From assembly GCA_002189035.1 (NCBI GenBank), contig CM007989.1, positions 248,001-312,000 on the forward strand: a stretch of DNA of 64,000 nucleotides, read 5' to 3'. Below the pieces are notes generated by a model, which worked only from the letters and a program-made list of their open reading frames with translations, had not been told where the DNA came from and did no database searches. Positions 100-61,220 of the stretch are shown piece by piece (the stretch's first letter is position 1; each line of letters starts with the position of its first letter). Source of the stretch: Utricularia gibba (lineage: Eukaryota > Streptophyta > Magnoliopsida > Lamiales > Lentibulariaceae). Position numbers and translations under genes: made by a program.

Positions 100-392
100 G
101 AGAAGAATCACGGAGCATATGACTTCATCTTCGTGGATGCGGACAAGGATAACTATCTGAACTACCAGAAAAGGCTTGTCGACTTGGTTAGGGTGGGGGA
201 GTGATCGGCTACGACAACACCCTGTGGAATGGCTCCGTCGTGGCACCGCCGGACGCGCCGCTGATGGAGTACGTTCGACAGTATAAGCATTCTGTGCTGG
301 AGTTCAATAAGAAGATCACCGCTGACGAGAGGGTGGAGATTTGCCAGCTCACCGTGGGCGACGGGATCACTCTGTGCCGCCGTCTGAAGTAA
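100..392 (+). CDS. Caffeoyl-CoA O-methyltransferase-like, 3' end only, frameshifted
   Basis: This is the last exon of a SAM-dependent, cation-dependent O-methyltransferase of the CCoAOMT family, which methylates caffeoyl-CoA or related catechols in phenylpropanoid metabolism in the cytosol. The 5' part lies outside the window. The exon opens after an acceptor AG at 98-99. It carries the family motif [15 protein letters not shown] (SAM and metal binding), then [12 protein letters not shown] and the C-terminal GDGITLCRR. The frame breaks after LVRVG at a run of five G (195-199). One extra G would join it to [11 protein letters not shown] in the next frame, and without it a TGA stops the protein at once. 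I read this as a probable one-base assembly contraction; a real null allele or pseudogene is the alternative. Substrate cannot be told from the tail alone. Confidence 0.85.
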
Positions 393-1303
393 TCTTCTGC
401 GATGGAAACTTAAACTTGGGAAGTTATCATTGTAATCTCCGTTCTTTTCTGAAAGTGTATCGCCTAATAAATAAATCTATTATCCAGCTTTATTATAATT
501 TCGAGTTTTTTTATAATTGTTTTAATTGAATTCAATATATTTTAAAAATGTTTCCAAATTTATTATTATTTTTAAAATTTTTAGAAAATTACTAAATTGA
601 ACACAAAAAAAATTATTGATTTAATTCGGATTTGCAAAACATTGTGAACTTATTTCAAGTTTTTTGTTGGAATATATATATTTATTTCTTCAAAATTGGG
701 GATCCCATCTCTCTATCGGTTATCAGCAATGGCTTGTGAGAACGCCCAAACGTTCAAATTGATCTGGACAGGCCCAAGAAAACTCAAACGCCTTGTTGCT
801 GACCTAGTTTCGAATCGCGAGTCGTTTCACATGGGGGTAAAGAACCAAGCAATGCCGGCGGCGGCCGAGGACAGATTCCGTTCAGTGTTTTGGCCGAAAG
901 AAGACAGCCGTTACGGTCACTGGTTGAATCAAGGTCAACCGCGTTCCGATGGAGCTCGTCCAGCCCGAAATAATATGTTAGAACATGTTCAATGATTTCT
1001 GGGAATTTAATTATTAAATTTATATTTTCTTTATAATTATTTTCGTAAAATAAATCATTTCCAAAAATTTGAAATGTCATTTTTTTGTGTACATTTTAAT
1101 GAATTTCTACAATGGAAATGTAAATTCCATTTTATGAAATCAGGAAACAAAACTAAATCTAAATAATGATTTTTAAAAATCTAATAAACACTTGTGTAGA
1201 AACCCTTAGTACATGTTATTACGAAGCGTTGGAATGTATAAGCGTCAAAGGCGGTGGGAGAGGATGGGAGAGAATTCGACCGTGGCGGGAGAGGTTCGGA
1301 GAC

Positions 1304-1438
1304 CTCTCCCTATCGCCCACTGACCAATTCAATTGAAGGGGCCGGAATGCGGTAGCGTGTGTCGGAAACTCTTTAGGTAGGGACTCATTCCTCTCCCTAT
1401 GACCGCCCAATTGAAGGCTTACTGCGGGAATGCGGTAG
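1304..1438. repeat. Degenerate two-unit direct repeat
   Basis: Two copies of a roughly 50-base unit sit at about 1304-1355 and 1391-1438. Each starts with CTCTCCCTAT, passes through a CAATTGAAGG core and ends in GGAATGCGGTAG. They differ by small indels. No coding sense or transposon ends were seen. Confidence 0.6.
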
Positions 1439-60032: not shown

Positions 60033-60234
60033 TGGAAATACTTGGAGTGGGAATCATCTTGCCCCACAATGGTTTTCTGGAGATGTTAGTAGTTATTATA
60101 TCACACGAAGTGGGTCTGTATATACATATATTCTTCTTCACAGGATGCTCATTCTTTGATACGTTCACAGGGTGTTTATCAACTTTCAGATACTGAATCT
60201 GATAGCAGATTGCAAGTAGAAGATACAGAGCAGC

Positions 60235-61220
60235 TCACACAGGCATCCTCAGAGCATGAACAGCGACTCTATTGTTGTGCACAACGTCCAGCTGCTTCAC
60301 TTTCACATGGTTGATTCTCATCGGCGATAATGGACCGCCGCCGCCTGAGGTGGTTATCTCCAGGTTCCGACCGCGTACCATCGTCGGTAAGAGGGTGCCT
60401 CTGGGTAGAGCTAACAAGTCGTTTGCAGAAAGAACCTTGTTGGGCACAACGTGGAATCCTAGCTCTGCCGCGTAATTGTGCATCTGGACGCCGTCGCCGT
60501 AAGTGAAGATGGTTTCGTCGTCGACGGCGAAAAGGGTCATGGACTTAAGCTCTGAAATCTCTGCATATTTGACCCGCATTGATAAAGCCATTATACTGTA
60601 AGCGCTGGTGCGCAGAGTCGACATGGCTTCTTTCAGCATGAGCCGCATCGAGAATAACGCGGCCGTTGATGGGGTTTCTCCGGGAATGAGAGAGTTGTCA
60701 TGCTTTCAATTCGGCAAGAAACAGGGGATAAATGCGTGAGGAAGCCCTGAACAGAGTGGACGATGAGAAGGCCGTTGCTGAAGAGATCTGGTTCCGTGAT
60801 TTCAGCCCCGTTGATAAAAACCGTTGTCGTCTGCTCCTCCGCCGTTGTGGCGGTGATGCTGAGGCAGCGATCGTCGGCAAGCGTTTCGATTTTCGCACCG
60901 AACGGTAATTTGCGGAGGATTTCGAAAGGGTAGAGACCTCGCACGGTGTGCTCTCGGAGGAGACGAATTACAGAGCAAGAACGGCATGTCTGAAGAGAAG
61001 ACTGCTTTGGGGCGAAGATGGTGATGGGAAAGGCGGCGGAGAAGTTATCAGACACAGCGGCAGTTGCGAGGTCTTGAAAACTATGTTCCGCGAGAACGGC
61101 AGCGATGAGGGGTTTGCATTCAGATGGCACGGCGGTCGCCACTGACTCCGCCGCCGTGGAAAACACCCACAGAGAAACAGTAACCGCCATGAGGAAACGG
61201 AGATCAGTGGTTATCGCCAT
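60235..61220 (-). CDS. Fasciclin-like protein (FLA21-type), one frameshift
   Basis: An intronless minus-strand gene. Fasciclin-domain proteins are secreted or wall-associated adhesion-type proteins. The N terminus MAITTDLRFLMAVTVSLWVF is a signal peptide, ending near TAAES. Fasciclin H1-like FPITIFAPKQSSL, then ITEPDLFSNGLLIVHSVQGFL, follow. After a shift come SMRLMLKEAMSTLRTSAYS, MTLFAVDDETIF, FHVVPNKVLSANDLLALP and MRINHVKVKQLDVV. Frame breaks at SFP/GETPS, where GGG at 60682-60684 (plus strand) should be GGGG. Corrected, the protein is 328 residues, right for the FLA19-21 group. No Pro/Hyp-rich arabinogalactan region or GPI signal is obvious. The stop is at 60235-60237. Confidence 0.85.

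Follow-up and report, generated by a model that had tools for sequence, protein, structure and literature searches.

Broken reading frames in the window

The window, by which we mean the whole stretch of 64,000 nucleotides that was analysed (C1:248001-312000 of an assembly of 100,091,633 bp in 516 contigs), carries genes that look like those of a flowering plant, among them genes for the TFIIH helicase XPD, an E3 ligase of the SUD1/DOA10 type, a PP2C phosphatase, a fasciclin-like (FLA) protein and a PPR protein (Table 1). The names XPD, SUD1 and FLA stem from the initial annotation of this DNA; matches in Pfam and the PDB back the families XPD/TFIIH, MARCHF6/Doa10, PP2C, fasciclin and PPR. In three-frame translations, conserved protein leaves one frame and resumes in another of the same exon, and eight in-exon breaks of this kind were verified in the five genes (three in XPD, two in SUD1 and one each in PP2C, FLA and PPR). 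The two breaks of SUD1 and those of PPR and FLA are placed by open frames that meet or overlap in a single exon, with no homologue aligned across the break.

Table 1. Positions, within the window, of the genes, frame breaks and unbroken comparison frames
Feature	Position	Strand	Description
XPD (TFIIH helicase) gene	47737..51065	-	12 exons as aligned to human XPD; three in-exon one-base-loss breaks; DEAD_2 and HBB domains
XPD break a	49829..49830	-	one base missing by offset; near CCC
XPD break b	49165..49171 (near 49170)	-	one base missing; adjoins GGGG, just ahead of a donor site
XPD break c	49035..49040 (near 49038)	-	one base missing; near GGG
SUD1/DOA10-type E3 ligase gene	9406..13879 (approximate)	+	two in-exon one-base-loss breaks, from frames; MARCHF6_C domain; Doa10 match away from the breaks
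SUD1 break a	11105..11125 (near 11115)	+	from frames
SUD1 break b	12405..12450	+	not placed at a particular run; the two open frames overlap, leaving no space for an intron
PP2C phosphatase gene	29150..30940 (approximate)	-	one break; PF00481; aligned to PDP1
PP2C break	30175..30188 (near 30180)	-	near GGG
Fasciclin-like (FLA) gene	60238..61220	-	one break within 60665-60720, from frames; PF02469 ahead of the break only
PPR gene	51390..53370 (approximate)	-	one break at ~52410, near CC; PPR repeats match in one frame and, weakly and below the cutoff, in a second
UDP-glycosyltransferase ORF	17516..19054	+	intact comparison; PF00201 at C1:266428-266802
Two long ORFs (633 and 827 residues)	24217..28819	+	unbroken comparison; PPR proteins by reading, without a domain search

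The offset at all eight breaks is that of one missing base, and gains of a base number zero, as the initial annotation had stated in reporting no clear one-base gains. Its count of about twelve broken frames is borne out for these eight; the other four or so were not listed in it. It had also placed the losses in short runs, mostly of G or C, which holds for the three breaks of XPD, break a of SUD1 and the breaks of PPR and PP2C, all of which lie at G/C runs of 2-4, while break b of SUD1 and the FLA break could not be placed to a run. The PP2C break interrupts the motif 'VANxG-DSRAxLG', which is contiguous in PDP1. Over ~25 kb of coding DNA, an approximate length estimated from ORF lengths and the gene lengths given earlier, the window has about one break per 3 kb. 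A Viterbi scan of codon usage with frameshift states flagged only the FLA break, on a weak signal of 0.12 nats per codon.

Changes of frame in a plant gene might of course reflect introns that were misread, so that splicing would join the two frames. This is what was seen in the gene of a CAP-Gly protein, where the intron was checked base by base, and it is apparently also the case for the amino-acid permease, lipase, WS/DGAT and cyclin genes of the window (judged from translations and domain matches) and for the loci L006 and L018 elsewhere in the genome. At all eight sites listed above, however, the frames meet or overlap within one exon. The XPD gene was aligned to human XPD under a model that permits both GT-AG introns of at least 55 bases and single-base shifts, and the alignment, which covers human residues 1-745 with 11 such introns, still required three one-base losses and no gain; a search of its exon pieces for in-frame stops found none. 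We hold misread introns to be an exceedingly unlikely account of the eight breaks. Programmed -1 ribosomal frameshifting, by which the frames would be restored during translation, would produce the very offset observed, but a slippery heptamer of the form XXXYYYZ occurs at just one of 30 sites and XPD would need three such shifts, which leaves this explanation a practically negligible probability.

GRAS and HSP70 genes across the genome

Genes of the GRAS family mostly consist of a single exon, and a split match to the family profile is informative for that reason. The 69 GRAS matches in the assembly were combined, by our own grouping, into 45 loci (the copies on C316 and C412 being counted as two), of which 24 are unbroken, 19 are split and two are fragments; the sequence work left aside the two fragments and three of the unbroken loci (C422, C413:5006k and C1:4829k). 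A frameshift-aware profile alignment divided the 19 split loci into 13 with losses only, three that have apparent introns or are unbroken (L006, L018 and L019) and three (L008, L010 and L017) in which gains, losses and stops are mixed and which are probably real pseudogenes. One-base loss alone thus breaks 13 of the 45 loci, and the 19 losses found over ~41 kb of domain sequence in 37 loci correspond to roughly one per 2.2 kb. Taken by itself, the offset test had hinted at more gains; upon alignment, L002 proved to have two losses and L006 an apparent intron. The UDPGT family was also tried as a sample for breaks and set aside, the profile covering too little of each gene.

Seven HSP70 genes have one large exon; four of them are open, and in each of the three broken ones the offset is that of one lost base. 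The aligner placed one loss each in the genes on C451 and C496 and scored the third broken gene, on C304 and repeated in C241, as having two gains, which the sequence and the frame offset lead us to take for a single loss within a G run. Together, the 15 loss-only genes of the two families (13 GRAS and two HSP70) contain 21 losses, no gains and no in-frame stops. The initial annotation had described a cluster of breaks across the window, and this is too narrow: the same breaks are met in 13 of the 45 GRAS loci and in three of the seven large-exon HSP70 genes, and the pattern is genome-wide rather than peculiar to the window.

Absence of the mixed lesions of decaying genes

Genes that decay in the plant, for example following whole-genome duplication, would be expected to accumulate losses, gains and stops alike. 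Some loci do look like true pseudogenes, and L008, L010 and L017, with their stops and gains, are the only ones in the sample with such a mixture. It is lacking from the 15 loss-only genes, and XPD is free of stops. Nor was a spare copy of XPD found at the DNA level, where a 2.3-kb query from the gene matched itself alone, and the rate at which genes are broken is close to the rate of base loss in duplicated DNA, which is described below. Real pseudogenisation is on these grounds a very improbable general explanation of the breaks.

Sign and run context of the losses

The sites that could be localised in the genome sample comprise 22 losses and two gains. The 22 losses are made up of 20 in GRAS genes, one of these in L017, and two in HSP70 genes; the HSP70 site of C304 and C241 that the aligner scored as two gains is outside this number, L006 (+1), L010 (-1, +1) and L018 (+1, +1) had been excluded before localisation as introns or pseudogene, and L019 was excluded at the same stage. 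G/C runs of at least 4 lie at 11 of the 22 losses, whereas random placement within these sequences predicts 2.0 (as many were reached in 0 of 5,000 simulations), and runs of at least 5 at five of them, against an expected 0.5. Runs of A/T are not enriched (2 versus 2.5 expected). Counting against a reading of the losses as errors in runs, six of the 22 have no G/C run of at least 3 within reach. The GRAS genes L003, L004 and L007 are broken next to 5-6 consecutive C at one and the same position of the profile, and we read this common site as a shared run rather than a shared event.

In the 191 kb of DNA that was fetched from the window and elsewhere, G/C runs come nearly to an end at a length of 6 (33 runs of 6 and one each of 7 and 8), and A/T runs reach 12 and more. 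A ceiling near 6 for G/C runs is suggestive, in that it fits runs of G/C that have been contracted. Despite this near-limit, one run of 19 C is present in L073.

Sequences that were assembled twice

The decisive evidence for consensus error comes from DNA that the assembly contains twice. Parts of several large contigs are repeated nearly exactly in small contigs, and four such pairs were compared (C234/C505, C242/C304, C316/C412 and C241/C304), keeping aligned blocks of at least 500 bp at 98% identity for C316/C412 and C242/C304 or 97% identity for C241/C304 and C234/C505. For C316/C412, blocks of lower identity between 15,127 and 23,877 were excluded, including one of 2,499 bp (97.6% identity, 46 mismatches, 7 gap openings). 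The pair C234/C505 then aligns over 8,005 bp with no mismatches and 12 gaps (nine of one base), C242/C304 over 14,015 bp with 12 mismatches and 17 gaps (15 of one base), and C316/C412 over 29,286 bp with 23 mismatches and 42 gaps (35 of one base). Gaps outnumber mismatches in these three pairs. The fourth, C241/C304, has 17 mismatches and three gaps over 4,454 bp, with no excess of gaps, and its difference looks like true divergence.

Natural variation between related sequences brings several substitutions for each insertion or deletion, and because of this we read the gaps between the duplicates as noise in the consensus. Pooled, the four pairs amount to 55,760 bp with 52 mismatches and 74 gaps, 62 of the latter of one base. 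Of these 62, 54 by raw count sit in runs of at least 2, and 34 fall in G/C and 28 in A/T, so that the duplicates lack the marked preference for G/C that the coding sample has. On the side of the large contigs there are 23 one-base losses over the 55,760 bp, or one per 2.4 kb. One GRAS gene that C316 and C412 both contain reads through as an ORF of 615 residues in C412 and is split into 229 and 412 residues in C316, where CCCC has become CCC; this pair is the phenomenon of the window with a built-in intact control.

Eight small contigs were, in addition, sampled blindly, and the one that was non-repetitive by 12-mer content was then searched. The seven others (L060 and L062-L067) are repetitive, with 0.13-0.36 unique 12-mers; among them L066 (C350:5001-7500), from a 7.5-kb contig with 0.30 unique 12-mers, is unlike the other pieces in having 67% GC in the piece that was read and a 438-residue ORF.

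Origin of the breaks

We consider it nearly certain that the breaks arose as errors in the consensus of a long-read assembly, were left uncorrected by accurate reads and occur throughout the genome. Long-read assembly error was also the explanation given by the initial annotation, and it is upheld by the three of four duplicate pairs in which gaps exceed mismatches, by the GRAS gene that is whole in one copy and split in the other, by the loss-only genes and by rates that match, duplicated DNA having one loss per 2.4 kb, GRAS genes ~1 per 2.2 kb and the window ~1 per 3 kb. Four marks of long-read deletion errors are found here, in that losses far exceed gains and are concentrated in runs, their rate is independent of function, and one duplicate pair differs by gaps without substitutions. 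That genes are broken at about the rate at which duplicated DNA loses bases means that no purifying selection is visible, and this fits poorly with real mutations in genes such as XPD, of which the search turned up a single DNA copy.

The process envisaged is a simple one. Sequence would have been called one base short, mostly in homopolymer runs, and the one-base errors would have persisted where accurate reads were not used to remove them. The errors would strike DNA irrespective of its function, at roughly one per 2.4 kb, and for this reason, of the long single-exon genes examined, some one in three would appear cut, though intact in the plant. The raw reads should then carry the longer runs, and the data are presumably those of the PacBio/HGAP assembly of Utricularia gibba. 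A review (PMC5793159) describes the assembly of this species by HGAP from 88x PacBio coverage, with an N50 of 3.4 Mb, and a genome of 101 Mb is given in another paper (PMC6265445). The fragmentation of genes by false deletions in runs is well documented in long-read assemblies (PMC12007338), and uncorrected assemblies of this type likewise show the false loss of single bases from short runs, many more deletions than insertions, and split genes. In the nanopore assembly used for comparison, however, deletions were commoner in A/T runs, whereas in the coding sample of U. gibba only G/C runs are enriched. Titles and the first parts of abstracts of open-licence papers yielded, among the matches listed, no report of this defect for the U. 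gibba assembly.

A real mutational bias of the miniaturised genome, by which single bases would be deleted from G/C runs and the resulting frames tolerated or recoded, would share with assembly error both the loss-only sign and the G/C-run context, and the HSP70 break that is common to C241 and C304 might be cited in its favour. But the combination of no mismatches and 12 gaps in C234/C505 is unlike haplotype mutation at ordinary rates, and three separate losses would have to be accepted in the sole copy of XPD that was found. As a general account, such a bias is extremely improbable. It is likewise very doubtful that even some of the losses are real, as might occur if germline contraction at G/C runs were strongly favoured and plants tolerated or recoded many of the shifted frames. 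The best candidate for a real loss is the break in the HSP70 gene at L052 (C241) and L053 (C304:2235000-2244999), which is common to two contigs that substitutions set apart; either a G run was systematically miscalled here or the gene is a real pseudogene.

Consequences for gene inventories

U. gibba serves as a model for the miniaturisation of genomes and the loss of genes. Missing bases make intact genes appear split or truncated, and should roughly one in three long single-exon genes be cut, the numbers of genes scored as lost, split or truncated are too high unless they are checked against accurate reads. Redundant copies on small contigs can, in addition, inflate gene counts. For lipoxygenase, a survey in the literature (PMC9867167) gives two genes of U. 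gibba, as against four loci with full domain coverage in the assembly (C1:6986k, C505:1313k, C505:1798k and C3:353k), to which one duplicate contig and one fragment can be added.

A truncated DCL3 of U. gibba has been published together with RACE by its authors, and the truncation was considered as a possible artefact of base loss. Elimination among the Dicer loci left L059 (C213:2753600-2763599) as the candidate for DCL3. This locus has a PAZ domain together with two of the RNase III type, and the ~7.5 kb upstream of PAZ, read in the forward frames, showed neither a helicase nor a dimerisation domain. An artefact is unsupported by this result, which is consistent with the RACE.

Plastid genes were tried as a control of high coverage and rejected, since the matches to psaA and psaB fall on C515, whose ORFs give it the look of a mitochondrial contig and of which the 30 kb retrieved consist mostly of N. 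At C515:70174-74549 (L049) an open psaB lies together with a broken psaA, and the two are possibly a plastid insert.
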